From contig OX485803.1 of assembly GCA_950295325.1 (NCBI GenBank), forward strand, positions 37,649,554-37,713,553: a stretch of DNA of 64,000 nt, written 5' to 3'. The translations under genes and the position numbers were made by a program. The stretch comes from Polytrichum commune (Eukaryota > Streptophyta > Polytrichopsida > Polytrichales > Polytrichaceae). The notes under the pieces are model-generated. The model saw only the letters and a list, made by a program, of their open reading frames with translations, did not search any database and was not told the DNA's origin. This document shows, in pieces, positions 17,301-45,632 of the stretch. Every line of letters starts with the position of its first letter. The first letter of the stretch is position 1.

Positions 17301-17747
17301 CTGCGCATGAGTCCCACCTTGTCATTTTCTGGCCAAACAACCACAACTGTGCTCGTCTATCCTAGTGCGTCACTTGTAACATTACACAGTCCACATATGT
17401 TTAAAGTGACACAAGCATGTTACTTTAAACGTGCTAAAACGCAGTTTTGCATCACTTGAAACGCAGAGTTACGTCATGTGAAACGCAGAGTCACGTCACT
17501 TGAAACACAAGGTAACGTCATAAGAAACGCAATTTAGCGTCATAAGAAACGCAGCGGTCACGTCGTGAGGAACGCAGAGAAACGTTTCTTGACACACGCG
17601 CGTCACTAGAAACGCAATGTCACGTCATAAGAAACGCAGATAAACGTCACTTGAAACATCAAATTAATGTCATTAGAAACACAATGTCGCATCATTAGAA
17701 ACACAATGTTACGTCATCGCGGACAGGTATTGTAAGAATGAACTTAC
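17301..17747. repeat. Intron filled with ACGTCATAAGAAACGCA repeats
   Basis: About a dozen degenerate units of roughly 25 bp, each with ACGTCA, a variable trinucleotide, then GAAACGCA. They sit in the intron between exons 1 and 2 of the tnpA-like gene. TGACGT is the core bound by plant TGA-type bZIP factors and could equally be the element's own transposase-binding word. Confidence 0.8.
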
Positions 17748-18531: not shown

Positions 18532-19700
18532 CGACTTGGCCCCGGAGACGCCCTCCCACTGGACTTGGCCGTGGGCATAGGTTTCGGAGGGCTTCCTCCC
18601 GCCTCTCGATCCATCCACCTTGTCTCCACGCGGCGCTGCTGGTTGCCCATGCTCCCGCGTGGCTTTCTGCCCTTCCGACCGTCCTCCTCCCAGTCCTCCA
18701 TTTCGTGCAGCAGCGCCTCTTCTCAACGCAGTGCAACTCGGACCGCCGTCACCGACAAACAGTTCCTTCTAAGCGGCAACTTAGAAGCTCGCGGCCTCCA
18801 CCCAACGAAAAGCTCCTTGCTCTCCTTGCGTTTCTGTCAGAGTGAAAAGAAAAGTACGAACCGAAAGCCGTCCACCTAACTGTCAGCGATGACGGCGTAG
18901 AACGACATTGGTGCCACAAATCCCTAAAATTCAAGCAACCAGCCACTATGTTTAAATTTCAAATTATGAAGCAATCGGCGATTAGGTATTTGTAGTTGGT
19001 GAAGACGAAATGACGAAAAAATTGGCTGCTTCAGGGTTTCTTACCTGAACCTCTCACTCCGCTGTGCTTGCTCTCCTTGCGGCCCAGCATTCGCTCATCA
19101 AAGGCAATAGGTTTAGGGCAGGGGGACTTACGAAAGGGACGAGACTTGTATGTGAGCGGTGAGCAGAGAGTGGAGAGCAGAGAGTGGCGATTTGGAGAGC
19201 GGAGAGCAGAAATGGTGTAAAAATAGGAAATATTCTATATTAAATTTAGAATTTCCTAAAAATAATACAAGAATATACTTAGAATATTCCAGATTATGCC
19301 AGAAATAGAAAAATTTGGGACCTATTTCCGTGGAATGTGTAGGCACTAAATAAAATAAATGCCTTGAATTTGAAATGGTCTGATTTAGTTTGGGAACCGT
19401 GAAGTGCAAAAATGATAGTAAAATTGTGATATAATAAATAAGTAGATGATGAAAACCAAGGATGATCCCAAGATGTATAGAGACACATGATACAGTTGAG
19501 TATTGTAATCCAACATTTTGAGTTGAATAAAAATAATCCATGCGATTGTATTTATTATATTATTGAGCTGACAATCTTAAATTATTCAATGAAAATCTTA
19601 TATCACTTAGTCTATGTCGTACTCGATTAGAAACATGGATGAATAGGCACTACTTCATCGATCTATCATGTTGATGGGAGAAAGGGACACTCCTAGAGTA
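18532..19700. other. 5' flank of the tnpA-like gene, then AT-rich spacer
   Basis: 18530-19130 is GC-rich and probably the gene's 5' region. 19150-19215 is a purine run (GAGCGGAGAGCAGAGAG). Its inverted relative is at 36110-36165, marking a second copy of this element there. 19215-19700 is AT-rich with no gene seen. Confidence 0.45.
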
Positions 19701-19704
19701 AATC

Positions 19705-22700
19705 CTAGGTCCGATCTAAAGGGTGAGTTAAAATTCCACTCTCGAGAATTACTTTGACCTCGTTGAAGCTGAAGGTTGGCGCGTGGATGAAAAGGTCTAC
19801 ATCAGGATTGCGATGGCAGACCTTTAAAAGAATATAGTAAACATGCTTGCAATACGAGAATTGATTCCGCCCTCGAAAGTTGGTCATTGTCTTCTTGAAC
19901 GCAGGGCATGTGCAACCCGGGAGGGAACTGATGGTGATATGGTATTGTGTCACATCGGGTGGCATCATCGAGTCTAGCGCAATGATGCAGCCATGGCCAG
20001 GGTGAGGAATCATTGTGACCGAGCGGAGTTGAGCTTTGAGGGAGTCCGAAGAGCCCATGGATAGCCGCTGCTGAGGGTTTGGACGGGTTGCGGTGCGCTT
20101 AACGAGCTTCCCTTCTCTCTTCCCAGGATACCTGTCCGCATCTGCTGGCACCGGCACGGAGTCTAGATTTGCCGGAGACGGTGCAGTGGAAAAGAGCCTT
20201 CTGGGTGAGACTGGCACTTTCTGCGGCAGTTGGAATCCGGCCGCCTCGAGGGCCAGGATCTCACATTGCTTGAGGTTAGTGCCAAGTTTCACTGGCCAAA
20301 CATCCGGAATGCTTGGTCTCTCCTGTTCCGCAGAGTATTGAACAACCCATTTGCGCCTGCTACCCTTAACGCACCTATGGATATCATCTGAGCAGAAGAA
20401 AAACTCTGTGGTCTCTTTCACATTCCTCCTAGTGCTGTGCCATAGACCGGTGTACGTAGGGGCAGGGGTTGATTTTGCACCCCTTACGATTCTCTCAGTA
20501 CACTTCTTTTTGGTGACAGCTCTCTGTGCCCAACAACATTTGGCAGAAGTCTTTGGCAACCGAGCGATGTGCCACTCCTTCACGTTCACCCTAGTCTCCT
20601 CGACGGCAGTGACGTGGCTGATCCGTCCCTCGGGGATGTGGGACGGGACGACATTGTCGGCATATGGCGCCATGGGTGCAACTTCCGGGACATTGGAATC
20701 ATCCTCTTCAATAATTATGGGCATGTTAGTGGAACGAGTCCGGACAGCCCTACCAGAGCCACGGGGATGTGAGAAGTTGACCTTATCAGGTCTGTGCGAC
20801 TCCTCTTCTGCTCCAAGAGGTAGATCTGCTTTCCGTTTCGTGGACCCGAATACCTCTTCCCCAGCCATGCAAGGCACCCGGGTACAGAACTCTTCTGCTC
20901 CAGGCATGTCCATCATGGGGTCTTCGAGGACTAAAGGATTACCCGTTTGCTTCGCCCTGCGCTCTGCCAACCTTAGCTTGAGCTCTTTCTTTGTAGGGCC
21001 TGTACCGCCGACATCACCTTTCAGGAACTGGTAGTAATTGACAACCTGTAGGAAGCCTCGAACGAAGTCGTCCACGGTAGCAACATAGAGGTCGCCGCCG
21101 CTATTTCCAGACGCTTGAAGCCACTTGTTGTGTATTGATTCGGCGAGATTACATGAAGGCATTTCTGCTAGTTCTCCTTCTGTAAATTTCTGCGTGCACA
21201 TAGTGGAAGCAATTATAAATTGGAGAAGAGTTGTGAAAATTACAGTGAAAGAAAAAAAAAACAACAAGTTTTGGGACAACATACCCCGGTCATGAAGCCT
21301 CCCCATTGGCGATAACGGAAATGCCAGAATGCAAGCCAGAGCTCCAGTTTGTCAAGTGCCTTCTCTGTCACTGCCCCGGCGGATACCCACCATGCACGTA
21401 GCCCGTGGTACAGGTTTTCCGCTTCGTCCATGGTCCTCGCGGTCCTATATTGGTGGCACATCTTCTTGTGCTGCTCCCAGAGTTCTTCGGGAATGTATTT
21501 CTCGGTATACTTAACCATAGATTGGGTCCAATGAAACTGACAGGTTCTCTCCCGGTCATCCATGCGGTCCTCCTTCTTCCCGTTGCCATATATGACCCGA
21601 ACTGCATTCCAATTGGCCTGGGCGCTGTCGGCCATGAAACCCTTGAAGTTGGTATCGACAACACCATTCCTCTCCATCACAGCATTGAGATTCTTCCAAA
21701 AAACGATCTGGGCATCACAGTCCTCCGATTGCATGTCACAACTTGCAATGGTCATGACACGACAATACGTGGAGTCATACACGTGGCATGCCATTGTGGT
21801 CCATTGTCTAACCCGTTTCACATGGTCGAACATCATCCAAGCATTCTCCAGATCTTCGCCGGGCTGCATACGCTTCACCAAGTCTACCCCACTACCAGGC
21901 CCGACTTCCGACATCTTGAAGACAAAAACCTTGTCAAGATCAGCCCCTTGACCAGGGAATTTGTTCTCCTGAACAAAGGCCCATAAACTGATTCCACGGA
22001 GTTTGGTGATAGAGTCCATGACACCATACCTTTTGAGGTATCGGAAGCTCATGACCTTGTTGCGGATGTTCGGGGAAGCCATGTCCTTGCACCGGTCGAA
22101 TACAGGAACAAGTTCCTCCAGAGTGAGCTTCTTTGGTGGCGCGTCATCGGATTGAAGAAGATAGTTGCCAATTAGAACTTTGCTAGCCTCCAACACAAGT
22201 GCACTCTTGGTAGCCTGAGGAGTCTTCTCGATCTGTTCTTCAATTAGGCCACTGATCTCAGCCTTAGTGTCTCTGTAGTCGCCCACCTTGACAGGGTGAT
22301 CGTGAGTTCCAATGTGGATGCACGCTCTTGTGTGGTTGTTTTTGCCAGCAACATAATAAATTTTCGCTCCACATGTAGCAATACATGTTGGGGGTTCTTT
22401 ACATACCTTGCAAACAAACGTAGAGTCAGGTGGGGGCGCTTGATCCACTACAAAGGCTTGGAGGGTACAACCTTCAAACTCTGTCTCGTTGACTTCGAAA
22501 ATACGAGGTCGGCGGATCAAATATTCGCACTCCTTGTTGTTGCAACACAGGTGTCCAACGCAAGCGGAAGAACGGAAGGACAAACCAAAGTCGTTTGTGA
22601 TGTTGGTGGTGATGGTCTTCGTCCACACATGGCCGTCGTAACGCTTGTCCATTCCCTGCATTGACTTGGCCTGTGACCGTGCGGCCGTGTCACTAGCGGG

Positions 22701-23390
22701 TGGCAACTCAAATATGACGACACCATCGAACTCAGCAGGAAGGTACTCTACTCTCTCGTGTCTAATCACTGAGTAATCTAATTTTTTTAGAATATTTTTT
22801 TTTCCCGGCCTTCCTGCAAGTTGTTTTAGCAATGGAAATATGCTAACAGTCTCTTGGGACAAAGGATATACTTTAGGAGCATTCCCACTAACTATAACCT
22901 GAGGCAGGGGCTTGGTGGGACTGCCCTCTTCATCTGAAGAAAGTGTAATTACAGACTGAACTCTAACGTTTTCTACAATTGGCGTGTCGAGACCGGGCTC
23001 GAGCTTGACCTTCACATCACGTGGCAGAGGAGTTTGAATGGTGCACGTAGAGGAATTACGAGGAGTGAGGATCTCAGTAGACGCAGCCATCTGAGAATCA
23101 GTGAGGCCATACACTCGGTAACTACCTGGAGGAAGACTCCAAAACAAGTTATTGTTCTCATCTCGCTGCGATACCCGACCAAGGGTGTATGTAAGTTCTG
23201 ACGTGACAACATCAAAAATATCCTCGTCAACAATAATAGTATCCTCTCTGAAGCCGAACCGAATACTCAGACGTTGGGACGTCACGTAAGCTAGACCGTC
23301 CTTTTGCATCCGAAAGGTAACTGGGACTCTCACACCATCTGCATAGAGGACAGCCAACCCCAAGTCTCCAATAGCAGGAATATGAGCCAT
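19705..23390 (-). CDS. MULE-like transposase with SWIM zinc finger
   Basis: Two exons: 23390-21285 and 21189-19705 (donor GGG|GTATGT, acceptor CACGCAG|AAA, phase 0), giving an open frame of 1196 residues. Start: ATG 23390 (MAHIPAIGDLG) is preferred over ATG 23501, whose extra residues look like leader sequence. In order: an N-terminal region; a Cys-rich zinc-type segment (CVGHLCCNNKEC and CKVCKEPPTCIATC) of the GCM/FLYWCH-WRKY sort common in MULEs; a DDE-type core with SCDMQSEDCDAQIVFW (Asp about 552) and GFMADSAQANWNAV (Asp about 587), then FHWTQS; a WHFRYRQWGGFMTG segment; a long linker; and a C-terminal SWIM finger CTCPAFKK...YCKH (about 1128-1151). Open throughout, so possibly active or recently so. 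I found no flanking inverted repeats. Confidence 0.8.
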
Positions 23391-25379: not shown

Positions 25380-28300
25380 GGTTGGCAAAGGGCTCCTTAG
25401 TGAGGTATGAGGTGAGAGCTGGATGATCCTTAGTAAGGTTCAAGGTGAGAGCTGGGGCGGCAGAAATTTTGGTGGCTTTGTAGGGTGGCTGGATGCTCTT
25501 AGTGTGGTTCGATGTGATAGCTTAGGGGCCAGAGATGAAAGGTGATCATATGAATTTCGGTGGCTGGATGGTCATAGTGAGGTTCGAAGTGGAAGTTGAA
25601 GCGGGCGGTGCGGTGCGGTTCGGTTCGGTTCCTTCGTTCGTTCGTTTCGTTTCGTTTCTTTCATTCTTCAGCTTTCTTTTTCAGCATCCTTAGTGAGGTT
25701 AGAGGTGAGAGCTGGGGCAGAAATGTAAGGTTATTATCTGATTTTTCGTGGCTTCCTAGGGTGGTGGATGGTCCTTAGTGAGGTTAGAAGTTAGAGCTAA
25801 GGGCACTGTCGGATCCGACAGACCCCTAGGGGCAGATATGCGCACCTCGCTTTTTATTTTCGGGAGGTTAGAGGTGAGAGCTAGGGGCAGAAATGCGAGG
25901 TTATTATCTGATTTTTGATGGCTTTCTAGGGTGGTTGGATGGTCCTTAGTGAAGTTAGACGTTTGAGCTAGGGGCACTGTCGGATCCGACAGACCCCTAG
26001 GGGCAGATATGGACACCTCGCTTTTGATTTTCGGGAGGTTCAAGGTGAGAGCTGGGGGCAGAAATGTAAGGTTATTATCTGATTTTTGGTGGTTTCCTAG
26101 TGTGGCTGGATAGTCTTTAGTGAGGTTAGAAGTTAGAGCTAGGGCATTGTTGGATCTGACAGACCCCTAGGGGCAGATATGGGCACCTCGCTTTTGATTT
26201 TCAGGAGGTTAGAGGTGAGAGCTAGGGGCAGAAATGCGAGGTTATTATCTGATTTTTGATGGCTTCCTAGGGTGGTTGGATAGTCCTTAGTGAAGTTAGA
26301 AGTTAGAACTAGGGGCATTGTCGGATCCGACAGACCCCTAGGGGCAGATATGGGCACCTCGCTTTTGATTTTCAGGAGGTTCAAGATGAGAGTTGGGGCA
26401 GAAATGTAAGGTTATTATCTGATTTTTGGTGCAGCCTAGTGTGGCTGGATGGTCCTTAGTGAGGTTAGAAGTTAGAGCTAGGGGCACTGTCGGATCCGAC
26501 AGACCCCTAGGGGCAGATATGGACACCTCGCTTTTGATTTTCGGGAGGTTCAAGGTGAAAGCTGGGGGCAGAAATGTGAGGTTATTCTCTGATTTTTGGT
26601 GGCAGCCTAGTGTGGTTGGATGGTCCTTAGTGAAGTTAGAAGTTAGAGCTAGGGGCACTGTCGGATCCGACAGACCCCTAGGGGCAGATAAGGGCACATC
26701 GCTTTTGATTTTCGGGAGGTTCAAGGTGAGAGTTGGGGCAGAAATGTAAGGTTATTATCTGATTTTTGGTGGCAGCCTAGTGTGGCTGGATGGTCCTTAG
26801 TGAGGTTAGAAGTTAGAGCTAAGGGCACTGTCGGATCCGACAGACCTCTAGGGACTGATATGAGCACCTCGGTTTTGATTTTCGTGAGGGTCAAGGTGAG
26901 AGCTGGGGCATAAATGTAAGGTTATTATCTGATTTTTGGTGGCAGCCTAGTGTGGTTGGATGGTCCTTAGTGAAGTTAGAAGCTAGAGCTAAGGGCACTG
27001 TCGGATCCGACAGACCTCTAGGGACTGATATGAGCACCTCGGTTTTGATTTTCGTGAGGGTCAAGGTGAGAGCTGGGGCATAAATGTAAGGTTATTATCT
27101 GATTTTTGGTGGCAGCCTAGTGTGGTTGGATGGTCCTTAGTGAAGTTAGAAGTTAGAGCTAGGGCACTGTCGGATCCGACAGACCCCTAGGGGCAGATAA
27201 GGGCACATCGCTTTTGATTTTCGGGAGGTTCAAGGTGAGAGTTGGGGCAGAAATGTAAGGTTATTATCTGATTTTTGGTGGCAGCCTAGTGTGGCTGGAT
27301 GGTCCTTAGTGAGGTTAGAAGTTAGAGTTAGGGGCACTGTCGGATCCGACAGACCTCTAGGGACTGATATGAGCACCTCGGTTTTGATTTTCGTGAGGGT
27401 CAAGGTGAGAGCTGGGGCATAAATGTAAGGTTATTATCTGATTTTTGGTGGCAGCCTAGTGTGGTTGGATGGTCCTTAGTGAAGTTAGAAGTTAGAGTTA
27501 GGGGCACTGTCGGATCCGACAGACCTCTAGGGACTGATATGAGCACCTCGGTTTTGATTTTCGTGAGGGTCAAGGTGAGAGCTGGGGCATAAATGTAAGG
27601 TTATTATCTGATTTTTGGTGGCAGCCTAGTGTGGTTGGATGGTCCTTAGTGAGGTTAGAAGCTAGAGCTAAGGGCACTGTCGGATCCGACAGACCTCTAG
27701 GGACTGATATGAGCACCTCGGTTTTGATTTTCGTGAGGGTCAAGGTGAGAGCTGGGGCATAAATGTAAGGTTATTATCTGATTTTTGGTGGCAGCCTAGT
27801 GTGGTTGGATGGTCCTTAGTGAGGTTAGAAGTTAGAGCTAGGGGCACTGTCGGATCCGACAGACCCCTAGGGGCAGATAAGGGCACATCGCTTTTGATTT
27901 TCGGGAGGTTCAAGGTGAGAGTTGGGGCAGAAATGTAAGGTTATTATCTGATTTTTGGTGGCAGCCTAGTGTGGCTGGATGGTCCTTAGTGAGGTTAGAA
28001 GTTAGAGTTAGGGGCACTGTCGGATCCGACAGACCTCTAGGGACTGATATGGACACCTCGCTTTTGATTTTCGGGAGGTTCAAGGTGAAAGCTGGGGGCA
28101 GAAATGTGAGGTTATTCTCTGATTTTTGGTGGCAACCTAGTGTGGTTGGATGGTCCTTAGTGAGGTTAGAAGTTAGAGCTAAGGGCACTGTCGGATCCGA
28201 CAGACCCCTAGGTGCAGATATGGACACCTCGCTTTTGATTTTCGGGAGGTTCAAGGTGAAAGCTGGGGGCAGAAATGTGAGGTTATTCTCTGATTTTTGG

Positions 28301-28662
28301 TGGCAACCTAGTGTGGTTGGATGGTCCTTAGTGAAGTTAGAAGTTAGAGCTAGGGGCACTGTCGGATCCGACAGACCCCTAGGGGCAGATAAGGACACAT
28401 CGCTTTTGATTTTCGGGAGGTTCAAGGTGAGAGTTGGGGCAGAAATGTAAGGTTATTATCTGATTTTTGGTGCAGCCTAGTGTGGCTGGATGGTCCTTAG
28501 TGAGGTTAGAAGTTAGAGCTAAGGGCACTGTCGGATCCGATAGACCCCTAGGGGCAGATATGGGCACCTCGTTTTTTATTTTCGAGAGGTTAGAGGTGAG
28601 AGCTGGGGGCAGAAATGCAAGGTTATTATCTGATTTTTGGTGGCTTTCTAGGGTGGCTAGAT
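25380..28662. repeat. 171-bp satellite array with a 16-bp palindrome per unit
   Basis: About 17 units repeat every 170-172 bp; the palindrome CTGTCGGATCCGACAG recurs near 25807, 25978, 26318, 26488, 26660, 26829 and so on to 28530. Each unit also has CCCCTAGGGGCAGATA, GATTTTCGGGAGGTT, GGTTATTATCTGATTTTTGG and TGGATGGTCCTTAGTGAGG. Units differ by a few percent and form sub-types (CCCCTAGGGGCAG or CCTCTAGGGACTG) that alternate in blocks. Long open frames on both strands here only reflect the period being a multiple of three (171). Confidence 0.95.
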
Positions 28663-29560
28663 TGTCGCAACCCTTGCTAGTCCCCTTAAAAATCTTGCCA
28701 ATTCGCATTTCTAGCATAGGTTACGAGTACTAACCCTTCGCATACCGCCAAGCTAATGGTTAGCTCCTCCTACCCGGACCGGTTAGTTCATAGGAGGGGA
28801 ACCAACCTTCCTACTTTGCTTTCGGGACTCACCCCTTAATCGGTAACCCATTCCCAAATGTGGACTTCCATCGATGGAAGTCCAATCCCATGTTGATCAT
28901 CGCGTTGCCGGAGCAACACTACAACAACCCGAACCATACTATGCAACTATGGCCTCACAATGGGCCAAAGCCCAATGAGGCCGTGCCGTTCGGCCTCGGG
29001 TGGGTGAGGCCACACCACCTCAGCCATATAAGCCTCTAGGACTCTACGAGGGGCCCCTACCCCACCGTCAACCAACCTCTTGTCTCTCTACCAAGAGTTG
29101 GGGCCAAGTAGACATTTTCCTTTAGCTGCTGGGCCTAGAAGCCCCCAACAGCTTCAGACCACCATAACTTTCTTGTATGATTTTTGATTCCAACAACCAA
29201 CCACTCCATCTTCATCTACGCTTCACGTAGATGCCGATGGACCCCTCACTTGACCCATTCATGCAAGTATTGACGACGTTATGCCTGTTTGAACCTTGGC
29301 AGTCCCGGGAATGACTCCCAGGCAATGCTCAACCAGGGCGCTGTCCCGCGACAGCGCCCCACTCAAATGGCCATAACTCCTAGCTCACACCTCCGATTGA
29401 GGTGTTCTTCAGCTTTCTAGAATCACCACGCCATGAGCTACGCATAGCTCATGGCCTTAGTCTTGTGCCTCCTAGTCTCCGAGGGTGAGCGGCGTCTTTA
29501 GGCTGCGAAGTCTGTGTGAGCGGAGCGGCGAAGTATGTGAGCGGCGAACCCATAACCCTT
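28663..29560. mobile_element. Diverged LTR copy inside the satellite
   Basis: Starts TGTCGCAACCCTTGCTAG and follows the LTR of the gypsy element at 47893-54950 (same minus orientation) until about 29490, where similarity fades. The far end (GCGACA) is not recognisable. Many differences from the 47.9-kb LTR show an older insertion or another subfamily. Open frames inside are not genes. Confidence 0.75.
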
Positions 29561-29589
29561 GCTTCAAACCCACTAGGCATCCTTAAAGA

Positions 29590-29828
29590 AAGAAAAAGAC
29601 GAAGGAGAAGGAGAAGGAGAAGGAGAAGGAGAAGGAGAAGGAGAAGGAGAAGGAGAAGGAGAAGGAGAAGGAGAAGGAGAAGGAGAAGGAGAAGGAGAAG
29701 GAGAAGGAGAAGGTGAAGGTGAAGGTGAAGGTGAAGGTGAAGGTGAAGGTGAAGGTGAAGGTGAAGGTGAAGGTGAAGGTGAAGGTGAAGGTGAAGGTGA
29801 AGGTGAAGGTGAAGGTGAAGGTGAAGGT
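29590..29828. repeat. GAAGGA to GAAGGT hexanucleotide microsatellite
   Basis: About 19 tandem GAAGGA units (to about 29712) change abruptly to about 19 GAAGGT units (to about 29828), with no mixing. The frames through it (Arg-rich, Leu-rich, Pro-Ser) are artefacts. Confidence 0.98.
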
Positions 29829-29829
29829 G

Positions 29830-31046
29830 CGTTTCTTCTGCTTTCTTTTTCATCGTCCTTAGTAAGGTTAGAGGTGAGCGTTAGGGGCACTGTCGGATCC
29901 GACAGACCCCTACTCCTATTGGCAGATATGGGCACCTCGCTTTTTATTTTCGGGATGATTAGGGTGAGAGCTGGGGGGTGGAGGTTTAGGGTGGCTGGAT
30001 GGTCCTTGTGAGGTTAGAGGTGAGAGCTAGGGGCACTGTCGGATCCGACAGACCCCTACTGACAGATATGGGCACCTCGCTTTTGATTTTCGGGAGGTTT
30101 AGGGTGAGAGCTGGGGGTGGAGGTTTAGGGTGGCTGGATGGTCCTTGTGAGGTTAGAGGTGAGAGCTAGGGGCATTGTCGGATCCGACAGTCCCCTTGGG
30201 GCAGAAATGTGCACCCGAATTTTTTATTTTTATTGGACTTTTTGGTAGGCCAGATGCTCATTTGGACAGGTATTAGTTGGGGGTTAATGCACGTTAGTGA
30301 GGATTTAGTCATGTTTAGATGCTCTTAGTGTGGTTCGAATTGATAGCTAGGGGGGGATTTAGAGGTGCTCTATAATCTGTTTGGCCTTTAAGGGTTTGGG
30401 ATGCTCTTAATGTGGTTCGATTTGATAGCTAGGAGGGGCACAAACTAGAGGTCAGATTATAGTGGAGAGAAACAGGGCAGATTTGCTAGCATATTATGTG
30501 AATTATGGTAGATTATGTGGGTGGCCGAAAGCTCCCAATGAGGCTAAGGTTAGAGGTAGGGGTCTGAAATGTGTTTGTTAGCACCTGAATATTTGTGGCT
30601 GGCTTTAGCTTGTGAGGTATGATATGGAAGCCCAGGGGCACTGTCGGATCCGACAGTCCCCTAGGGGCAGAAATGTGCACCCAAAATTTGATTTTTGTTG
30701 GACTTTTTGGTAGGCCAGATGCTCATTCGGGCAGGTATTAGTTGGGGGATTGTGCACGTTAGTGAGGGTTTAGTCATGTTTAGATGCTCTTAGTGTGGTT
30801 CGAATTGATAGCTAGGGGGGGATTTAGAGGTTAGATTATATTTGAAAGAAACATGGCATATTTGCTAGCATATAATCTGATTTCGGGTGGATTTTGGGGG
30901 TAGCTGAAAGCTCACAAGAAGGCTAAGGTTAGAGGTAGGTGGATTTTGTGGATGGCCGAAAGCTCCCAATGAGGCTGAGGTGAGTTTGGTTGTATTATCA
31001 TGTAAATATTGGGTGGCATTGTTCATTCTATTGGTTCTTATGTTGG
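29830..31046. repeat. Satellite continuation and 465-bp duplication
   Basis: Palindrome-bearing units resume at about 29890, 30035 and 30175. A further block is duplicated about 465 bp apart (palindrome at about 30177 and 30642; GGTAGGCCAGATGCTCATT at 30246 and 30711). No gene. It runs to within tens of bases of the methylase-like gene's first open exon. Confidence 0.8.
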
Positions 31047-31076: not shown

Positions 31077-34000
31077 ATGGTTGCGGATGGAGAGTCATTG
31101 GATGTTGGGGTTCGCATTGGTGCTGGGTCATCCCTTAGTGTAGAGGAGCATATGGAGCAAGGGTCTCCGTTGTCATGTGCTGAACCTACTGGGCTTACAC
31201 CTGGTAGTGGCGAACCGCAGACACCCGGGATGACACTCACCGGCTCACCACCAGAATCGGATGTGGGTGTTCGTGTAATGGAGTATCGGATTCGCCACAA
31301 TTTAAAAAAAGATAGTTTTTCAGTTGTTGAGGGCATGAGGATACAACCGGTCGAAAAGTCCTCTATGAGAATCCCTCTCTGCAGGTTGATTCACATGCCA
31401 TTGGTTCGGCCAACTCTCCGCAGCGACGTTACAAAGCTCATGGCAGCATTTCAATTTGGATACCGAGCTGGGTCTGCCACTTTTTATGTGTCTACTGCAA
31501 ATGAGAGTGGAGAGAATCGATTCATTTCTGCCAAAGACAAGCGTGAATGGGGAGAGCTATGGAATGCAGAAAATGATAAGTTTGAGTTTTTTTTGCGCTC
31601 GGATAAGGACTTGATGAGCCTTAGTGGATGCATGTTCTTTGTGTATGATGGTAACCACCGCTTGCTAGCGTGGAAGGAGTGTATTGAAACAGATCACAAG
31701 GACGATGCACTTTGGTATGAGAAACATGGTTGCCCAGAATGTGTCATCCTCGACACAACGGGTGGGCGTGGAGACGTCCTTAATGCAATGCACGACATAA
31801 ACAAGTAAGTTTGTTATTTTTTTGAACATTTTTTCCTTCATTTTTTTATTTTCATCTAATGCCATTTATCTCAACCGCAACAGGGCTAACCAGACTGCGC
31901 ACGTTAAGACTAGCCTTGTTCACACTCTACACCGCATCCAAAAATACGGTTCGTATGATCTTAGCTACTACCAGCCATTGTTGACCGAGGAGCAATTCCA
32001 AGCGTGCAAGAGCAGAGGCCCCAAGAGCCCTTGGTACCCGCTGACCCAGGATCTTATGGTGTCCTTCATTTTCAATGTAAGTCACTCCAAATTCATCAAG
32101 CTCCTACTTCGCATTCATTACTTTTAGTCATGGTCTAACAATTTAGAATACATGTCCAGCAAGAGATAGCCGATGCGGTAGATGAGGCGGCCCAAATCTT
32201 CAAGGAGGAAGTGCCTCTAGATGAGCAGTCAGGGAAGGGGTTGAGTGATGTATTGGACGCTGTAATTAAGAAGACGTCTAAGGAACTTGGGCATAAGTTC
32301 AACAAACAACAGTCGATCGCAAACCCTGCCCTTGGAAAACAGTTCCTAGATGAGGTAATTTCCTTGTCATCCAATTTGGAATTATGCTTTTCGTATTGCT
32401 TGCATTCTTTGCAGCATTTTTTCAGTAAACATTCTAAAATTTACTTGGCCTTCTATTTTGATTGCATTTGTTTCAGATTACTAGGCATTATAGCGCCCAC
32501 CATTCTCAAAAGATTGAGATGACATTGGAGAAATTGCAACTCATTGCCACTGCCGCTGTCGAGCCAGAGTATAAAGCCCGTTGGCTTAAGTGGTGGAACA
32601 GTGGAAGTTTCAATCGTGAAGCTATCCGGTTTCCCAAAAGTCCTGCAAGCGAGGACAACTTGAAATCTTGGCTCAATAAAGCAGCGTTCTGGGCAGGGGT
32701 ACGTCTATCCTATTTTCTTTGCTTACCTTTCAATTCTTCATTTTGTGCCAATTCTCATGTTCGCCTTGAATTCCTTCACAGCTAGAGGATGCTGCGGTCA
32801 AGGAGTTACCGGATATACTAAGTGCATTGGGTGGGCTTGACGGAGACGTGGAAGTTGATTCGTTGCCGGATTACTTGGAGAAGTGGCGAATTTGCCTTTG
32901 GGATAAGGCGTTCATTGGTCACTTCTCAGGGTCAGATATCTATGGAAAGGGGACGTGGTGGAAGGATGTCAAAGGCGCTGACAACATTGTCAAGCGCTTA
33001 ATTTTCCGGTAAGTTAGTTGGGCCATCTTTTGTTCTCATTTATATCAAACTAGTTGTTTTCTAAGTTGCTTATTGGCCTCACTCTTTGGTTGTGAAGGTA
33101 CATCAAGCACGAGCTTTTCAAGAAGAAGGCTTTGAAGAAGCTTCCTCCATTTCTGGATGCATGGTCGGATTCCTCTTCGCCCACCTTCATTTTTTCCCCG
33201 GCTCAAAAGCGCAACTTCTCCCTCCCGCATCTCCGCGAGTGTTGCTGGTACTTGGAGTGTAAGAGGACGTGGCAGCCGGATGAGGAGGCGGCCTTGAAGA
33301 TTCGGCTCTCCGGTGGAGAGCCACCTTCTCAAAGCGATGAGGTTGTTCTTCTAGAGAGTCAGCTTCCGGAGGCGGATGAGGTTGTTGCGACTCTCGATGA
33401 GCCCAACACTCAGAAGTCCAAGAGGAGGAAGCGTGCGACTCAAGACGAGTCTTCACTAAAGAAGCGCGCGAGGAAGCTGAAGACTGTGGAGGATGATCCC
33501 CCTGCTTCACCTGAGGCGGCAGTTGCATCCACTACAACTCTTAGTCAAGTTCCTACTCTTTCCAGGCCGCCTCCTCCGCCCGTTCTTTCATCTGCTAGGC
33601 GTCCTCCAGTTGTTTCAGAATGCATCTTGAATGCCTCTATTCTTCATCAACGTCGTCATTTTCAGGATGTTTCCAACTTCATTCTTTCTCTTCCACCCTC
33701 CTATCCGCGGAGAGCTCTAGGCGTTGCGAGGTCAGATGTGGGCATGGCTGATCTTGTCATTGCCGACCTCCCGGAGAACCTGCCGGTACCCAATGTCTCC
33801 GATCCTTCCTATAGTGTGCCTTCCTGGAATGCATTGGATTCCGATTTTATTGGTGAACTCTTCGATTTCGCGGACGAGATCCTGCATGACGATGGAGCTC
33901 TCCTCCTCTTTCATCCAGATGACAATGGTGATTTCAGGGAGAGCATTGAAGACCACTTCGCTGCTTTTGGGTTCACGATCTTCAAGGAGTGGCTGGGAGT

Positions 34001-35008
34001 CAACCGTCTTCGCCTACATTCAGCTAAGCATAAGGACAAGACCACCAACCTCTTCCAAGTTGTACTACTTGTTCGTGCCACCAAAACAATTGGATCTGAC
34101 CTTGATAAGCGGCCCCGGCACTCGTCATTTCGCCTTCGCGATGCCAATGAGCTCAAGGCTCTTGGCATTGAGCTCGACATGGATGATGCGATTATGAATT
34201 ATACCGCAACTCCTCTCATGGACGGCTCCAAAGCTTGGCGTGGTCCCCGGGAGAAAGATATTTCTTTCATGTCCTCCTTGATCATGGCCACTACGGACAT
34301 TGGACAGGTTGTGGTGGACATTAATGCAGGCGTTGGTATGTCCTAATTCACTTGCCAACATATCCTAGTTTTCAATTTCTAAGTTTGTTTTTTTTTCCTT
34401 TGCTAACCTTTCCTCCGCAACAGGGACTTCTATCCATGCATGCAGGCAGCTTGGGCGCCATATCGTTGCTCTTGAGGAGGACGAGGACACCTTCAACCGT
34501 GTCCTTAAGCCACTTAAGAGTGTTCAGCCTACGGTGAAGGCTCCATCCATTGTTGTTGCTTCCACGCAGGCTTCACAAGGCACGCAGAAGAGGCCGCCGG
34601 CCTTGAAGCGATCGAGGCCAGAGCCCTCGCAGTAAGTGAGTATGATGACCTTCTTCGCTTATTTTCTTTGTCCATTCAGCTTTTACACTTTCCATCCTCT
34701 TTCTTACATTTATCGTGTTTTTTTTCAGACTTGGCGTTGGAGCGGATGTGTTGGGTACTCCCACCATGGGATTCACATTGCCTATCTATGCCCATGATAT
34801 GGCGATGGTACTAGCGGCACAACCTTCTCCTACCGAAGCTAGTTCCCCGTCTCCACGTTATGACCCCCGTGCCTTAGACTTCTTCGAGCATTCTGCGGAG
34901 GTGGATAATGAGTGCCATAGCTTAGATTCCACTTCAGATGAGGGCGGCCATGAGGGTAGTATCTTTGGAAGTAGGGAATCTAGTAGTGACGACCTCATGG
35001 TTGATTGA
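31077..35008 (+). CDS. ParB-like / permuted DNA-methylase-like fusion protein
   Basis: Eight exons with canonical GT-AG borders join into one open frame of 1096 residues: 31077-31804, 31884-32076, 32160-32354, 32477-32698, 32782-33008, 33098-34335, 34424-34631, 34729-35008. Residues about 98-240 resemble a ParB/sulfiredoxin-fold domain: IPLCRLIHMPLVRPTLRSDV, a FQFGYR helix segment, then VYDGNHRLLAW (191-199) at the GxxR-type position. The middle (243-530) is unrecognised. 615-690 is Lys/Arg then Pro-rich, with KSKRRKR as a possible nuclear signal. Residues about 735-965 follow the N4/N6 (beta-class) methylase order: motif IV place DLVIADLPENL (741-751), GALLLFHPDD, then motif I place VVVDINAGVGTSIHACRQLG and HIVALEEDEDTF. 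The DPPY/SPPY catalytic motif reads DLPE, so activity is doubtful. The tail is acidic. ParB-methylase fusions are known from phage and bacteria; origin by transfer is my inference. ATG 31077 has an in-frame stop upstream (31047), but a 5' exon is possible. Confidence 0.75.
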
Positions 35009-36069: not shown

Positions 36070-36259
36070 ATAGGTGCAATTTCTCTCTCATTTCATGTCT
36101 CAAATTGAGTTCTCCGCTCTTCGGTCTTCGCTCTCCGCTTTCCGCTCTCCGCTCTCCGCTCGCATACTAACTTTCCCCCTTACGAAAGCTTTGCCGCCTC
36201 GACTAGGCGCCGCTCCCTCCGAGTACGAGCAAGCTAGACGCTGGCGCGAGCTTCGCCTT
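36070..36259. mobile_element. Left part of a second TGACGT-repeat element, split by a solo LTR
   Basis: CTCTCCGCT-rich text (36110-36165) and CCCCCTTACGAAAGC match, inverted, the 5' side of the tnpA-like element at 19.1 kb. It resumes after the solo LTR at 37232. Confidence 0.5.
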
Positions 36260-37231
36260 TGTCGCGCACCTCTCCATGAGGAGTGCCCGAAACACCATGG
36301 GCACAAGGGGGACCCCGGAGTGACACCCGGGACTTGTGGCGCCGTTGGTGAGAGGGCCCAAGTGATCCTAGTGTGGGTGAGGGCCCCGGCGTTGGGAACG
36401 CCTCCCACCCACGAAGACTAGGAGGCACAAGGGTAAGGCCATGAGTTATGCGTAGCTCATGGCGTGGTGATTCTAGGAAGCTCAAGAACACCTCAATCGG
36501 AGGTGTGAGCTAGGAGTTATGGCCATTTGAGTGGGGCGCTGTCCCGGGACAGCGCCCTGGTACAGCAGTGCCTGGGAGTGATTCCCGGGACTGCCAAGGT
36601 TCAAACAGGCATAACTTCCTCACCACTTGCCCGAATGGGGCAAGTGAGGAGTCCATCAACATCTACGTGAAGCGTACATGAAGATGAAGTGGTTGGTTGT
36701 TATGATCAGACATCATACAAGGAAGTTATGATGGTCTGAAGCTGCTGGGGGGTTCTAGGTCCAGCAGCTAAAGGAAAATGTCCACTTGGCCCCAACTCTT
36801 GGTAGAGAGACAAGAGGTTGGTTGACGGTGGGGTAGGGGCCCCGCGTGAAGTCCTAGAGGCTTATATGGGTGAGGTGGTGTGGCCTCACCCACCCGAGGC
36901 CGAACGGCACGACCTCCATGGGCATTGGCCCAATGTGAGGCCATAGTTGCCTAGTATGCTTCGGGTTGTTGTAGTGTTGCTCCGGCAACGCGATGATCAA
37001 CGTGGGATTGGACTTCCATGGATGGAAGTCCACATCTAGGAATGGGTTACCGATTAAGGGGTGAGTCCCGAAAGTAAAGTAGGAGGGTTGGTTCCCTCCT
37101 ATGAACTATATGGTCCGGGGTAGGAGGAGCTAACCATTGGCATGGCGGAATGCGAATGGTTAGCGCTCGTAACCTTTGCTAGAATTGAAAATTGGCAAGA
37201 TTGTCAAGGGGGGCTAGCAAGGGTTGCGACA
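36260..37231 (+). mobile_element. Solo LTR of the gypsy family
   Basis: Starts TGTCGCGCACC and ends GGTTGCGACA, 972 bp, an inverted copy of the LTRs at 47893 and 53978. The flanks GCCTT (36255-36259) and GCCTC (37232-37236) are a 5-bp duplication with one mismatch. No internal region, so a product of LTR-LTR recombination. Frames such as 36074-36421 run partly through it and are not genes. Confidence 0.9.
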
Positions 37232-37745
37232 GCCTCGGCTGGAAGTCCGACTCCACATCATCCGATCACCGCCTTCTCGCACTTGTCTTCACCGTTGGAG
37301 CAGCGGAGGACTTGATAGAAGAAACCGCGCGCGAAGGAAACAGGCCGCTCACAAAGTTTCCTTCAAATCGTGCCTCCTTCAATCGCAACGCCACCTCCCT
37401 CATGTTTGCCGCGACCCTTGCATCACGCAGCAGCTCGTAGGGAGGAGTGACAGCATCCGCCTCCATATCTGCATGGATCCACATGATGAAAGGGCAATCC
37501 GGCTGCCATAAGTGATCTCGAGTTGGTGACCCTATAAGCGTGCGCCAGTTAAATCACCCGGCGGTGATAAGGTACATGTCCCCTACTTCCGCGGAAATTC
37601 AGAACACCACTATATTTAGAAATTACTCCTTAAATGCTAAATAGTGTTTACCAACGTCATGCATAACAATACAACGTCACTTGGAGCGCGGTGTAACGTC
37701 AACTGAAGCGCAATTTCTACATTAACGTGGAAGGCAACTTCTATT
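37232..37745. mobile_element. Right part of the split TGACGT-repeat element
   Basis: A minus-strand stretch (37484-37266) could encode VAANMREVALRLKEARFEGN, a plausible exon remnant. 37650-37745 has AACGTCACTTGGAGCGC and AACGTCAACTGAAGCGC, the same repeat words as 17.3-17.7 kb. Confidence 0.4.
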
Positions 37746-38369
37746 AGTTAATAACAAAAATATTTGCTCCAAGCCACGCCAAGCCACGCCACGCCACGCC
37801 GCGCCGCTCCTGCTCCAGCTCCTTCTCCTTCTTCGTCTTTTTTTTCCTTTATTTCTGCTCATTGGGGTTTGGACAAGGGTTATGGGACCGGCCTAGGGTG
37901 GGGGGTGGACCGGGGGCAGTGGAGAAATTGTCTGGGGAGGTCGGCCACAGTCTTCAACTTTTTGGACATTTTGGAGGAGAATAAAGCTGACAAACTAGAT
38001 TTACAGGTACAACATCATTGATGGTGAAAATTATATATGACAGTCACCCGCTTGCTGCAACATTCAATCTTGCAAATTTAGGCTCAGCCACAGTCAAAAT
38101 GCCAACAAGCAAATCTTCAAGGGGCCTGTGATGCTTGGATGCCAATTTCAGAATTACATATAGAGGTAGACCAACACAAAAATGAAGCAACATCATAATC
38201 TACACCGCTGGCAACATCAGAGCCATCTCTTCTCTTCTTTTTCTTGCAAGTTTCTCCTACTACTGTGGGTTTCTTGGTTGAGCCTCAAAGGAGAAAGACC
38301 AGGAAAGTCTATTGTCCTGCAAATTTTATCAGCTCGGCTAATCTCAAAGACCTGCGGGTTAAATGACAA
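37746..38369. other. Spacer with CCACG microsatellite
   Basis: No gene recognised. A short (CCACG)n-like run lies at about 37771-37808, followed by C/T-rich text. Confidence 0.4.
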
Positions 38370-39539: not shown

Positions 39540-39563
39540 GGTTAGTCATTCACCTTCAATTAC

Positions 39564-42500
39564 ATGGCAAACCAACGGAATAGGAAAATGCCAGGTCAAG
39601 GTACACGAGAGCGGCTTGCCAGAGAATTAGAAGAGTCTAATAGAAGACAAGCTCAAAATGAATGGCAAAGACGGTGTAGACAGAGAAGGTCCGAAGGTCT
39701 GAGAGCTCTATGCGAGGAACTAGAGTCCCAAGGGTCTGAGGATAGCAACATTAATGTGGAGAGGTCAACGTCTAGGGTGGCAGAGAATTTTTCCCTTCAA
39801 TGGTATCAAGAAACATCTGGAAGGGGTCTCCAATATCAAAGGTCCTTGATTCCCAAAATATTGAAGCATGTTGTTTGGCAAAGTGTCCTCCCCAACTACT
39901 CTGAAATGGAGCATGCTTGGGAAGCTGTAGGGAATATAGCTAAGGGGTGGCAACAAATCAAAGGTTGTCACTCCAAGGATGATCAAAGGGCTAGGAATGT
40001 TATCATTCATATGGTTGCCAGTTTGAATACGAATATGAGGCAGACAAGCCTTCTCACTGGCATTCATAGGAGGAATTTCCATGTTGGGATAGTTAGGCGG
40101 TTGAGTTTAGATGCCCGTGTAGATCGTTCTTTGTGGGCTCTTTGTGGAAAATCAAAGCGCATAGATGCCACACCTTCAAAGGTTTGTGAACTCATTGTTG
40201 ACTTCTGGTGCCTTAATTCAAGGGTAAGTCCTAACAGAAAGGATGTTGTGAGGAAACGAATCGACAGTGGAATGTGGGAGACTCATGCAACCCACCACCT
40301 CATGGAATCTCAGGTACACCTTACCCATCATGGGGCTTCTCTGCATTTTTTTCTACAATGGATTGTGGTTTAGGGTGTTGTGCAAGGTTAAGCATGTTTT
40401 TTAGTGGTTCAGGGGGTTAGGCTTGTTTAGGAAATTAATCCTTAAGGCTTAAAGGAATTATCTGATTCCTATCATATTAGTATAGTTCCTGAGGGGCTCC
40501 CCTCATGCTTGGAACACTTCTATTTGGATCATTCCAGTGTGTTGGGTTCTAGGAATGTGCGCATAGTTTAGGTAAATTCCTTTAGATGCATAATTTTGGT
40601 TTCCAAGCGTTCAATCCATTCCTATGCTAGAGTTCCCATATCCCTCTTATGTGATATTGTTCATGGTGTAGTTGCAATGTTGTAAGGATTCTCTTATGAT
40701 TCCTATCCTTTATTCCTGTGATTCTTAGTGATTAACCTCAATCCTGATGATTCCTACTTCCTGCATATATCTTTCCTGATGATTCCTACCTCATGTATAT
40801 ATGTTTCCTGATGATATTTATGTGTCCTGATGATTCCTACCTCATGTATATATGTTTCCTGATGATATTTATGTGTCCTGTCAATTCACGTCTTTCTTGC
40901 TCTGTCCAGTTCCTTAATGCAATATTTCCTGATGATACACCCTAGTCCTGATGATTCCTTCTCCTCAGTTCATGTTCCTTGATGTAGTTATTGAATTCAT
41001 AAATGTTTTTTATACTGAGAATATGTATTAATATTTTGGAAACTGCCCATGTTTTGCAGCTTTCTTTGTACACTTGATTCAAAGAGGAACATCCAAATGT
41101 GGAAGTTGGCCTACGCATATTTGAGTCATTGAAGCCTTGGTATGTGAAGAGGCTGCAAGAATTCAATTCTTGTTGCTGCCGCTATCATGTGCAGATGGCA
41201 GAATTGAAAGATGGCTTCAACAACATGAGACGAAGAATCTTGCACCAATCATGTGATTGTGGTTGTGTTGTTTGTGGTGCACGTGGCCCCGGAACACCGT
41301 GTTGGGCTCCTTTATCTACAGTTGAGGGTGTGAGGGCCATGTGTGATCTGGTGCTTTGCTCAAAACTAGAGTCCATGGACTTCCACAAGCTTCAGTGCAT
41401 TAGAGGGAATTGTCCTGACTGTGGTGTGTGGAAATTGCAATTGTGTCCTCATGAGGTGGACCCCAATAGCACAACACTGATTCCTTGGAGGAAGTTTGAG
41501 AATGTTTTTGTAGGCCAAAATTCTGAAGGTGGTGATCGGCATGCACTACGATTGGAGCACAAGACCACTCCTCCTTCCGAATTCATATCATTCCTTAAAC
41601 CCAAGCTTGCAGAGTTTCTGGCACACAATTTTGAGGCAAAATGGCAAGATGCTCAATTCAAATCTTGCCTTGAGATCTTGTCAGGTGACCAAATCCTATT
41701 TGTTATTGATTTTGCTGAAAACTATTCTTTAAATGGCAAAACGAAGTGCAATCCCAACATTGGCAGTCATTCCAGGTGACAATCCTTGTGCATATTACCT
41801 TCCGAATTGATACTGGTTGGGATGAAGTGGATGTTAGGGCCAAAATACTTACCGAGTATCATTTTTATGTGAGTGACGACAAAACCCACGATAATTTGTT
41901 TGTGCAATATTGTTTTGGTTTGCACTGGCTTTTTTTGATAGAATCAGGCCATGCAGTACCGGTGGAGCACATAGTTTTCTCTGATGGGTGCTCTTCTAAA
42001 TTTAAGTGCGCTAGGTCCCTTTATTTCGTGTCGCGCTATCCTACGCTAACCAGAAGTCCACACCTACCTAATGGATGTGCTATGCAATGGAATCATTTTG
42101 GTTCCGGGCACGGAAAGGGACGTTGGGATGGGCAGGAGCAACAATCAAACAAGCTCTTCGAGCAAAGCAGGTGAAACCTGATGGTATTAGGCTACACAAT
42201 GCTAGTGATGCTGTTGCTTACCTTAGGCAATATATGGGTCGGCAAAACGCCGGGTATTCCAATGTTCGTAGGGATGTGAAACGATACTTTTATGAAGTGG
42301 CCACCACTGATGTTATGCGTGCAGATCAATTTAATGCCCGCACAGTGGAGGGAACTAGATCATTTCACCAAGTTCGCAATGTAGGATTGGATATGATTTC
42401 CTTGCAGGTTCGGACCCTTTCGTGTTTCTGTAGCTTCTGTCAAGATGGAGGTGATGGCCCCTGTGACAATGCAGACTATGTGGAGCCTTATAGACTCATA

Positions 42501-43061
42501 AGGATTGAGCCTTGCAACATAGATGATGTTCGCGTGGATTTGGAACATGTTGATGTCATTGGGGAGGGTGACAGGGAGGCGATAGCTGCTTGCTTGGAAG
42601 TTGGGGATCATTTCGCGGTTGTTGCTGATGAAGGAAACTCCGAGGATTCCGATTTTTGGATTCTAATTACTGAAGAGACTCTTCATGCTGTTGAGGAAGA
42701 ATTCAAGGAAGATTGTTGGGGCCAAAAGGTGTACAAGGGAGAGCAAATTGTGGTAGGCAGGTATTACAAGCAAAAAGGAAGGAGTATGAGATCTTATGTT
42801 CTATGCGATGTTGGTCATGCTTATATCTACTCCCATTTAGTAATTGCAGCAAAGTTTGCAATGTTGCCGGCACGGCATCGACAAAAAGGTGGGAGGGAGG
42901 GGACACATGTACATGCAATCTATACTGAACCCACCTCTTTTTGTATGGGCATCTTCAAAGTTATGGTATTTTTTAAATTGTTTTTAAAGGTACTTATGTT
43001 ATGCAAAAGGGAATCATTCCATACGTGCATGCCTTTCATTTATCAACTACATGGCATGTGA
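39564..43061 (+). pseudogene. Broken transposase of unrecognised family
   Basis: Exon 1, 39564-40313, is Arg/Gln-rich then helical (donor CAG|GTACAC). The best acceptor is TTTGCAG|C at 41060, in phase, but TGA follows at 41075. The frame continues HPNVEVGLRIFESLKPWYVK, a Cys-rich zinc-type region (CDCGCVVCGARGPGTPC, then CIRGNCPDCGVWKLQLC), and a DDE-like core with ILFVIDFAENYSL, HIVFSDGCSSKFKCARSLYF and FGSGHGKGRWDG. One-base deletions break it near 41740 and near 42137; the frame then runs AGATIKQALRAKQV and on to about 42820. VIDFAEN, FSDG...K and GHGKG..DG look like catalytic-site blocks of a DDE transposase; I do not recognise the superfamily. Inactive: one stop and two frameshifts. Confidence 0.65.
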
Positions 43062-44530
43062 TTGTTTGCACACAACTTTTTAGCATGATGGGACAGGGGG
43101 AGTGTGGGGCATTGGAGGTTATTTTCTAATAATTCCTTGTGGTTGGTGGATAGGTGTACACGCTCCCTGCAGCTGCTCATGAACTCATAGAAGCAAGGCT
43201 TAGTGCAACTTAAGACATTCACCTGACATTGTAGAATTTCTAGCTAGGGTGATGTGTACATCTGAAGTGCATGATCATTTCCACCCTGAGTGCACTTGTG
43301 CCTCTTGTACCAGATATATTATCACATTTAAATGTGCCACCATCGCACTGGTGGGTTTTTTTTTCCAAGTGAAAATCATGTCATTTTTGTTGCTTGAATG
43401 TGGCCATGGGTTAGGTTGATAGTTTTATGTGCCCTTCTTAGACCTATTATGCTTAGGCAGTCAATGATTGGTGCAAAATTGTGACCGTGTTTTTTTTTCC
43501 GTGGATACTGGTTTAGGCTCTTACCCAAGCTGGGTTTACTTTATGCCCTCCCTCGCTCCCTCTTTTGGATGTGTTTCTTTAGCAACTTCTCAGTACCATG
43601 GTCCGAAAAGTTTTTGAAGTTATTGAGGTTAAGGGTTACCTGGGAGTTTTGAACTTAAAAGTTTGGTCTCGCAATAATGTGTCACAGTATCAACCTGTTA
43701 TGCCCAAAAACCTCCCCGATCACTGGCCACTACTAGAGTAGCAACTTTGACATCCCACACATGTGGACATTATACAACACAGTTGTGAGCCCAGAATTTA
43801 AGGTTTGTGCAGACTCAGGAGGACAATTGACACAATCTAGACAAGCAAAACTGTCATTTTTCCCTGACATACAGTATTGATATCATGTATGATCTATGCC
43901 TCCGGTTTTCTCTTTTTCTGACCACATGATGCATTCTTGGGAATCAATTGTATTTCCTATGAAATTACAGACTTCATAGTATGAAGGCTCCATGAATCTC
44001 AAGGAATTTGATGACCGGAGGTTACAAGAAAACTGTACACTCTGAATTAAGCTGCCAAAACTAAAACTTTGACAACTGTTAGATTCTAGAGTCTAAGCTT
44101 CACTTTGGTAGGTAGGAGGATTTGACATCATGTGTAAACCAACTGGATAAGAGACAAGAGAATGCCTTTGTCATATACCCTGATCCGTATATATATATAA
44201 CCTATATACACCTCTATGTACTCATAACATTATTAAGATCCATAACAATGTTTTGTGGGAATGAAAATATTTTGTAAAATATTCCCCACATTCAGTTTGA
44301 ATATGAAGAATATTCCACCAAATACTGTCAGTCCCGGATAACACTATTATGGATCTGAACAATGCTATGCTCTTGCACAACATCAACAAACATTACTTAT
44401 ACTTATATTTATTTTTTAACAATTAATGACTCTCGGGCTAAATTTTTGACAATACTGTTGGTATTGTAACATTACTTAGAACCTTGACCCCCAATCTCTA
44501 CAAGAGATTCAATGGTTCATCAACATATTA
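43062..44530. other. Gene-free stretch within the large element
   Basis: No gene seen. Mixed AT-rich sequence between the transposase remnant and the pogo/Tigger copy; includes a (TA)n-like run near 44190. Confidence 0.4.
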
Positions 44531-45632
44531 CAGTCTAACCTCGTTAGTACGACACTCGTTTAAACGACACCCTCGATATTACGACACATTTTTGCGCGAC
44601 CAAACTTTTTAGTTCAAAACTCCCTCTTTTATACGACTACGACACTCAATAATACGACATTTAGAGCCTGTATTTTGTCATATTAAAGAGGGAATAAATG
44701 CTGAAATTCTTTTCATCCATGTCATGTACAACTAGAATACATCCATTTTCACTTGGGAACTACTTGAGAACTTCACTTATCAATGAGAACTTAATGATAA
44801 TTAGGGTTACTAGTGTAGAATGGACATGGTTAGGGTTAGAGTGACCTCTTGCCTAGTATGTTGCCTTGTACATGGGTGAGATACTATCTCTTGTGCACTC
44901 TTGCATTCTTGCAGTCTCAAATTCAATTTTCTATAATCTCCAATACAATGGAATGTTGATTTTGCCCTAGTTGATGAAAGGGAGAATAATAAAATGCGAG
45001 AACAATCACATGAACTCGGTGCTATGATTTCAAAGTTGCGATTGGGGGATGATGAGATGTCATTTGAGACTTATATTTAGAGAGGAAGGGGGAGAGTTTA
45101 CAGAGCTACAATTGAGTATTGATGAGTTGGTGGATGCCGCTTTGGGAATCAATCATGCACGGGGCTTTGATCTCAATGTTGATTTGCATTCAGTAGATGT
45201 GGATGATGTTGCCCCACCTACAATAAAGCTTAGTGATGCTAAACATCATGCATCATTGTTGTCTAATTTCTTATTAGACAACTTTTTACATTTTGGTGTT
45301 AATGAAATTTTTAGTTTTCTAAAGCTAGTAGGGAATTTAGATAAGATGACAGTTGCTAACTTAGGTAGGCAAAACCAGAGATCTTTGAACTCTTATTTCA
45401 AGAGTTCTTGAAAAAAAATTGTATTCTTTTGGAGTTATCGGTTATTATTTCATACAATTTATATTGTTTAAACTCGTTGTATATGTTTTGAAGCTCATAT
45501 TTCTTATGTTTTTATAATCCCTCGATAGTACGACAATTTTAGGCCATTTGTCATATTAATGAGAAGACAACACCTAGATAATACGACCTTTTTTGCGTTT
45601 CCCAAAGGTGTCATACTAAAGAGGGAGAACAG
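44531..45632 (+). mobile_element. pogo/Tigger-type remnant
   Basis: The left end is CAGTCTAACCTCGTTAGTAC. The right end read inward is CTGTTCTCCCTCTTTAGTAT, so the inverted repeats are imperfect. TA flanks both sides (44529-44530 and 45633-45634), the Tc1/mariner target. GATAGTACGACA and AATACGAC words repeat near both ends. Only the C-terminal part of the transposase remains. Confidence 0.75.
45000..45411 (+). pseudogene. Tigger/pogo transposase C-terminal tail
   Basis: Reads DDEMSFETYI in one frame, then after a one-base slip REEGGEFTELQLSIDELVDA, ending GRQNQRSLNSYFKSS-stop. The plan (acidic, E-L-T/S-D/E-E-L-V, then Q-x-x-L-x-x-Y/F-F at the extreme C-terminus) is that of jerky/Tigger-type transposases. 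Their terminal PIP box contacts PCNA in pogo. The DDE core is deleted. Confidence 0.65.

Follow-up and report, generated by a model that had tools for sequence, protein, structure and literature searches.

ParB is known from plasmids, where it binds the site parS, and a writer of N4-methylcytosine (4mC) has reportedly been found in liverwort. Among the described systems closest to the one treated here is the giant transposon Sola1-1_Ec32 of Ectocarpus, which encodes, opposite its transposase, a ParB-like/N4-N6 methylase accessory protein of 1104 amino acids (accessible part of PMC12477816). According to the same portion of that source, ParB-methylase proteins occur in brown, red and green algal transposons as possible self-marking devices, and the giant elements mostly carry nested insertions, their transposases being often dead. 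The 4mC writer of bdelloid rotifers is a bacterial-type amino-methylase, reported in what is accessible of PMC8885841 as a working host mark. Here we describe an eight-exon gene at 31077-35008 (+) of a window of 64,000 nucleotides (64 kb, the whole stretch of DNA analysed) from the moss Polytrichum commune (assembly GCA_950295325.1, contig OX485803.1, positions 37,649,554 to 37,713,553 of the forward strand). Its product may be, with a probability of about 0.4 for the explanation as a whole, an accessory protein of a large DNA transposon of the Ectocarpus class that recognises its own element, in this case in a land plant.

The locus resembles Sola1-1_Ec32 in the domain plan as described (the ParB-like part being putative here), in the length of the protein (1096 against 1104 amino acids) and in having a (here candidate) transposase gene on the opposite strand, and the window recalls the giant algal elements, as far as the accessible text describes them, in its size and plan, in the neighbour on the opposite strand and in its nested long terminal repeats (LTRs). 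It differs in that the algal transposase is Sola1 whereas the neighbour in the window looks MULE-like, and in that element ends were not found. On this explanation the locus would extend ParB-methylase transposon proteins from algae to a land plant with moss relatives, and the idea of a transposon that binds and epigenetically marks itself becomes directly testable. Among the matches listed in the open-licence literature there was no report of a ParB-methylase fusion in land plants, which is a weak negative.

The eight-exon gene and its Ceratodon relatives

The eight-exon gene is real. Its exons join into 1096 codons and a stop with zero lesions, and GT..AG borders are present in all seven introns (length 79-122 nt, GC 27-37%), which bears out the intact 1096-residue frame proposed by a first-pass annotation made from the letters of the window. 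The exons, all on the + strand, are as follows.

31077-31804 (+), exon 1: N-terminal part, with DGNHRLLAW inside the ParB-like region (residues ~98-240; 31368-31796)
31884-32076 (+), exon 2: first portion of the middle region; colinear with P0002 (see below)
32160-32354 (+), exon 3: middle region; colinear with P0002
32477-32698 (+), exon 4: middle region; colinear with P0002 and P0003 (see below)
32782-33008 (+), exon 5: middle region; colinear with P0002 and P0003
33098-34335 (+), exon 6: a low-complexity linker followed by the methylase-fold domain, which holds DLVIADLPENL and the beginning of motif I
34424-34631 (+), exon 7: end of motif I (GTS), next helix/strand and the EED acid
34729-35008 (+), exon 8: acidic C-terminal tail, 92 codons and stop; provisional

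A homology search against about 5.8 billion proteins, in which the 8000 candidates with the most words in common with the query were scored, gave a sole match, Ceratodon purpureus M758_1G295400 (P0002; 1147 amino acids, E=5.8e-119), with 81% of the query aligned and an identity of 32-33%. As this match is colinear through splice junctions 1-6 of the 7, the gene model lies far beyond chance. The ParB-like part, the middle region and the methylase part of P0002 are all colinear with those of the window product. A two-sequence profile search (6047 candidates scored) added a second Ceratodon protein, KC19_7G101700 (P0003; 661 amino acids), whose likeness covers the middle and methylase parts only; it is 59% identical to P0002 and has a different locus tag. 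It may be noted that a search with residues 500-980 alone returned zero relatives and missed even P0002. Within the 64-kb window no second copy of the gene was found. Both Ceratodon proteins differ from the window product in motif IV, treated below, and in having no counterpart of exon 8. That exon is treated as provisional because of this missing counterpart and because the exon-7 donor overlaps with a TAA stop, which makes an end of the protein at residue 1004 possible; the homology with P0002 reaches neither junction 7 nor exon 8.

The methylase-fold and ParB-like parts

The C-terminal part is well supported, by profile comparison of sequences, as a permuted beta-class DNA-methylase fold. 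This grade is given because PF01555 (N6_N4_Mtase) matches P0002 above its cut-off (4.9e-7, columns 2-217 of 221) and the window product just short of it, with 25 bits against 26.7 (2.1e-5, residues 905-957, columns 163-215), a profile of three methylase sequences matches the solved structures of DpnA (2.1e-9) and CcrM (6.9e-8), and the window piece alone reaches 8.6e-5. The PF01555 match on the window product spans exons 6-7. CcrM aligns colinearly with positions 12-220 of the profile, a stretch that begins just behind motif IV and takes in motif I; the alignment to DpnA includes motif IV, but this stretch is weak when taken alone (i-Evalue 6). The motif IV-like DLVIADLPENL (33750-33782) stands before the motif I-like VVVDINAGVGTS (34308-34335 and 34424-34431). 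These motifs and DGNHRLLAW in exon 1 had been quoted in the first-pass annotation and are present, and the permuted methylase-like domain that it proposed holds as a fold. The product shares the permuted beta-class fold with DpnA, an adenine methylase (5hfj, 5hek), and with M.CcrMI (6pbd). In the profile alignment the K in the region that precedes motif I is kept, as is the acidic residue that follows this motif; the product differs from them in having neither the aromatic residue of motif IV nor the F of FxGxG, and in being fused to other domains.

Motif IV of amino-methylases reads (D/N/S)-x-P-(Y/F/W), and its aromatic residue stacks on the flipped base. The window copy departs from this catalytic rule with DLPE, as against DTPF in P0002 and DQPY in P0003, so that the earlier remark on a DPPY-type motif lacking its usual aromatic residue is borne out for this copy. 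Since that residue is missing, the window copy probably does not methylate, whereas its Ceratodon relatives may do so. In motif I the window sequence DINAGVGTS keeps the GxG of FxGxG without the F, and the Ceratodon versions, DLSASTGAS and DLAASTGAS, keep one G. With the 4mC writers of bdelloid rotifers and liverwort, as far as these are described, the window protein has in common a bacterial-type amino-methylase fold in a eukaryote; from the rotifer enzyme, a working host mark in the accessible account, it differs in that its active site is degenerate and that it carries a further domain. The locus is a warning that such genes should not be taken straight away for host writers of 4mC or N6-methyladenine (6mA).

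In the N-terminal part the order of elements resembles that of ParB (IPL, helix, FYVS, a long insertion, YDGNHRLLAW), and the region is 44-47% identical between the window product and P0002. We are somewhat inclined to regard this part as ParB-like because of the DGNHR motif and the published description of similar proteins. DGNHRLLAW resembles the G-x-x-R-x-x-A box of bacterial and phage ParB, and an array of 16-bp palindromes adjoins the gene, as would suit a ParB/parS system; the differences are that no profile match reaches significance, that a long insertion precedes the box in the window protein, and that no ParA was seen, none having been searched for. The DGNHRL-A box aligns at the G-x-x-R-x-x-A box as the best match with both hhalign and a hidden Markov model (HMM), at a level which is not significant.

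The palindrome array and the divergent neighbour

Upstream of the gene we found a perfect palindrome of 16 bp, CTGTCGGATCCGACAG, centred on GATC, the site of DpnA-type methylases. Allowing up to 3 mismatches, 21 copies are present (17 of them exact), all at 25806-30656; elsewhere in the 64-kb window, the region downstream of the gene included, there are zero copies, and 100 shuffles average 0.10. The copies are arranged in two blocks, beyond which the divergent neighbour of the gene is found.

25695-28644 (no strand assigned), tandem array of 17 units of 170 bp, of which 14 contain CTGTCGGATCCGACAG exactly and the other three a close variant
29855-30681 (no strand assigned), four diverged units, whose palindromes (3 of 4 exact) lie at 29890, 30036, 30175 and 30641
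19705-23390 (-), MULE-like open reading frame (ORF) of 1196 open codons; exons 23390-21285 and 21189-19705

The last diverged unit ends about 420 bp before the ATG of the ParB-methylase gene. In the four diverged units the palindrome is kept at 63 of 64 positions. Conservation is lower in the flanks, at 458 of 616 positions overall (Fisher p=6e-7) and 133 of 160 when the nearest 40 flank positions of each unit are taken (p=7e-4). Of the 155 stretches of 16 bp in the array unit, only 9 are as invariant as the palindrome or more so, and all 8 of those listed overlap it. By analogy with plasmid parS, a bound site would look like this. A GAAGGA/GAAGGT hexamer microsatellite of 38 copies was also seen at 29601-29829.

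The neighbouring ORF is divergent to the ParB-methylase gene, the two start codons being 7.7 kb apart. Its intron is a canonical one, picked among several that leave the frame open. We take the ORF to be a putative MULE-like transposase that has a WRKY-GCM-type finger and ends in a SWIM-like part; for one of its exons Pfam gave a weak SWIM match (E=0.14). It would be the candidate transposase of the same element as the ParB-methylase gene. The array between the two divergent genes is the new element of this locus and offers a concrete candidate target for the protein.

The proposed course of events would be that a large DNA transposon carried the gene here, with the divergent MULE-like gene as its transposase. 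The N-terminal part would grip the 16-bp palindromes of the shared intergenic array as ParB does on parS, and the methylase-like part would mark GATC-type sites in the array or, as an alternative for this DLPE copy, only bind S-adenosylmethionine (SAM) or DNA. As an outcome the element would recognise itself, and shield or regulate itself. In its most specific form, i.e. a self-recognition module of a land-plant giant transposon, in which a ParB-like protein binds a parS-like array (21 palindromes between divergent genes) and a methylase domain marks, or here reads without marking, the same sites against silencing, the proposal must be called quite unlikely.

Weighing the transposon explanation

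Several results weigh against a self-recognising transposon protein. Pfam returned no ParB family for the N-terminal part, a profile search of PDB no ParB chain, and the sole ParB family listed by PHROGs was phrog_1033, with E=0.22 in 1 of 2 members. Against nine phage ParBs the hhalign score was 12.0, with 60 column shuffles giving up to 18.7 (mean 11.3), and with the HMM of these nine about 94 of 400 shuffled sequences ranked ahead of P0002, the window protein being unlisted. The ParB/Srx assignment of the first-pass annotation is not supported by any of these, nor by structure prediction, the model of P0002 (four-row alignment) having a mean predicted local distance difference test value (pLDDT) of 34.4 and a predicted template-modelling score (pTM) of 0.27, too low for a fold reading. 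Profile comparison, which that annotation had recommended for both parts, gave the DpnA and CcrM matches for the methylase part and no ParB match above noise for the N-terminal part. P0003 as annotated is without the ParB-like part, and motif IV and motif I are both degenerate in the window copy. For the spliced product of the neighbour, called MULE-like from its sequence pattern, Pfam gave no match, and tandem arrays such as the one described homogenise without selection. The likeness to the Ectocarpus protein is to its published description (accessible part of PMC12477816). The window search for terminal inverted repeats with a target-site duplication around the gene and its neighbour found none. 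As candidate ends, the 79% inverted repeat 29549-29631 / 37807-37886, which starts CCCATAACCCTTG and flanks the gene, is without target-site duplication, and so is the GAGCGG-rich pair 19127-19205 / 36111-36188 (75%), of which the window-wide search returned a 19-bp piece only. A further pair, 14077-14431 / 63237-63590, was rejected as ends, target-site duplication or significance being missing. The whole explanation is held at the probability stated at the outset because ends with a duplication are missing and the likeness to the Ectocarpus protein is one of description.

The gene might instead be an ordinary host gene, i.e. a ParB-methylase-like gene of the bryophyte lineage that was anciently acquired and then retained to modify DNA or chromatin, with transposons next to it by chance. 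Its frame is intact beside nested and broken repeats and its moss homologue is colinear except for the last exon, as would be expected of such a gene; yet the two Ceratodon proteins, with their different locus tags, are just 59% identical, an open divergent DDE-like ORF (19705-23390) and the palindrome array adjoin the gene, and a published protein of the same plan is a transposon passenger (accessible part of PMC12477816). We therefore find a host gene unlikely, though not negligibly so, and consider it no less probable that the gene is a transposon passenger than that it belongs to the plant. The first-pass view that a plant acquired and kept a ParB-methylase stands in so far as the gene is spliced and open, but may be too host-centred given the algal accessory gene of the same plan in that partly accessible source. 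That the gene was recently inserted by a phage or a giant virus is very improbable: it has seven introns, three scans of viral contigs (two of which used the same two peptide patterns) and one of prokaryote genomes, all of which detect only pattern-sharing relatives, confirmed no relative, and among the matches listed (30 of the 264 phage records matched by P0002) it is the methylase end only that matches. What can be counted for such an origin is that ParB-methylase fusions occur in phages. A ParB-methylase from Bacillus also appears in a review that deals with proteins of phages and plasmids (PMC5512222, accessible part). As to a chance or artefactual gene model, the absent homology of exon 8 and the stop overlapping the exon-7 donor could be cited in its favour, but it is refuted for exons 1-7 by the E-value of the Ceratodon homologue and its colinearity over six splice junctions.

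For the array itself the contest is closer. That it is a satellite or a subterminal transposase-binding repeat, unrelated to the gene product, stands only a little below even odds, and the subterminal repeats of DNA transposons do bind transposases. The 170-bp array is one-sided and homogenised, and no palindrome copy lies downstream of the gene, which agrees with such an origin. Against it speak the 16-bp stretches of the unit, so few of which vary as little as the palindrome and which overlap it where listed, and the better keeping of the palindrome than of its flanks in the four diverged units too. The array can equally well be read as a transposase-binding repeat or as a site bound by the ParB-like protein.

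Other features of the window

Three features of one LTR family bear on how the surroundings of the gene are to be read.

47893-54950, LTR retrotransposon, intact and young; LTRs of about 973 bp, 99.7% identical, with TTAAG on both sides
36260-37231 (-), solo LTR of about 973 bp (TGTCGC..GCGACA), flanks GCCTT/GCCTC with one mismatch, downstream of the gene
28663-29495 (+), truncated LTR nested between the array and the gene, outside the gene's unit

Inverted repeats of about 800 bp at 28663-29495 and 36260-37231 had been considered as ends of the element and were rejected; the apparent flanking repeat is explained by the truncated and the solo LTR, both of the 47893-54950 family. A coding-looking fragment at 37232-37490 (-), which starts MWIHADMEADAVTPPYELLRDARVAANMREVALRLKEA, adjoins the solo LTR. 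The young LTR element, together with the open 1196-codon frame of the MULE-like ORF, contradicts the first-pass description of the surroundings as otherwise decayed transposons.

Further away, CACTA transposase pieces lie at 7860-12519 (-); one of them matches DUF4218 (5.5e-37), and the remaining pieces are presumably of the same transposase. Beside them, within 7860-18527 (-), is an ORF that we take to be Transposase_24-like; the pieces and this ORF lie among GACGTCA/AACGCA-type repeats. A search of Rfam gave no result. On the other side of the gene, at 39546-43058 (+), a DDE-like protein shows the motifs DFAENY, FSDGCSSKFKC and SGHGKG and at least 2 frame changes; Pfam gave nothing relevant for it, and it may be a Sola-type transposase. 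After this DDE-like gene a 50-nt inverted repeat (88%; 43642-43691 / 44575-44624, 0.9 kb apart) resembles a small nested element.

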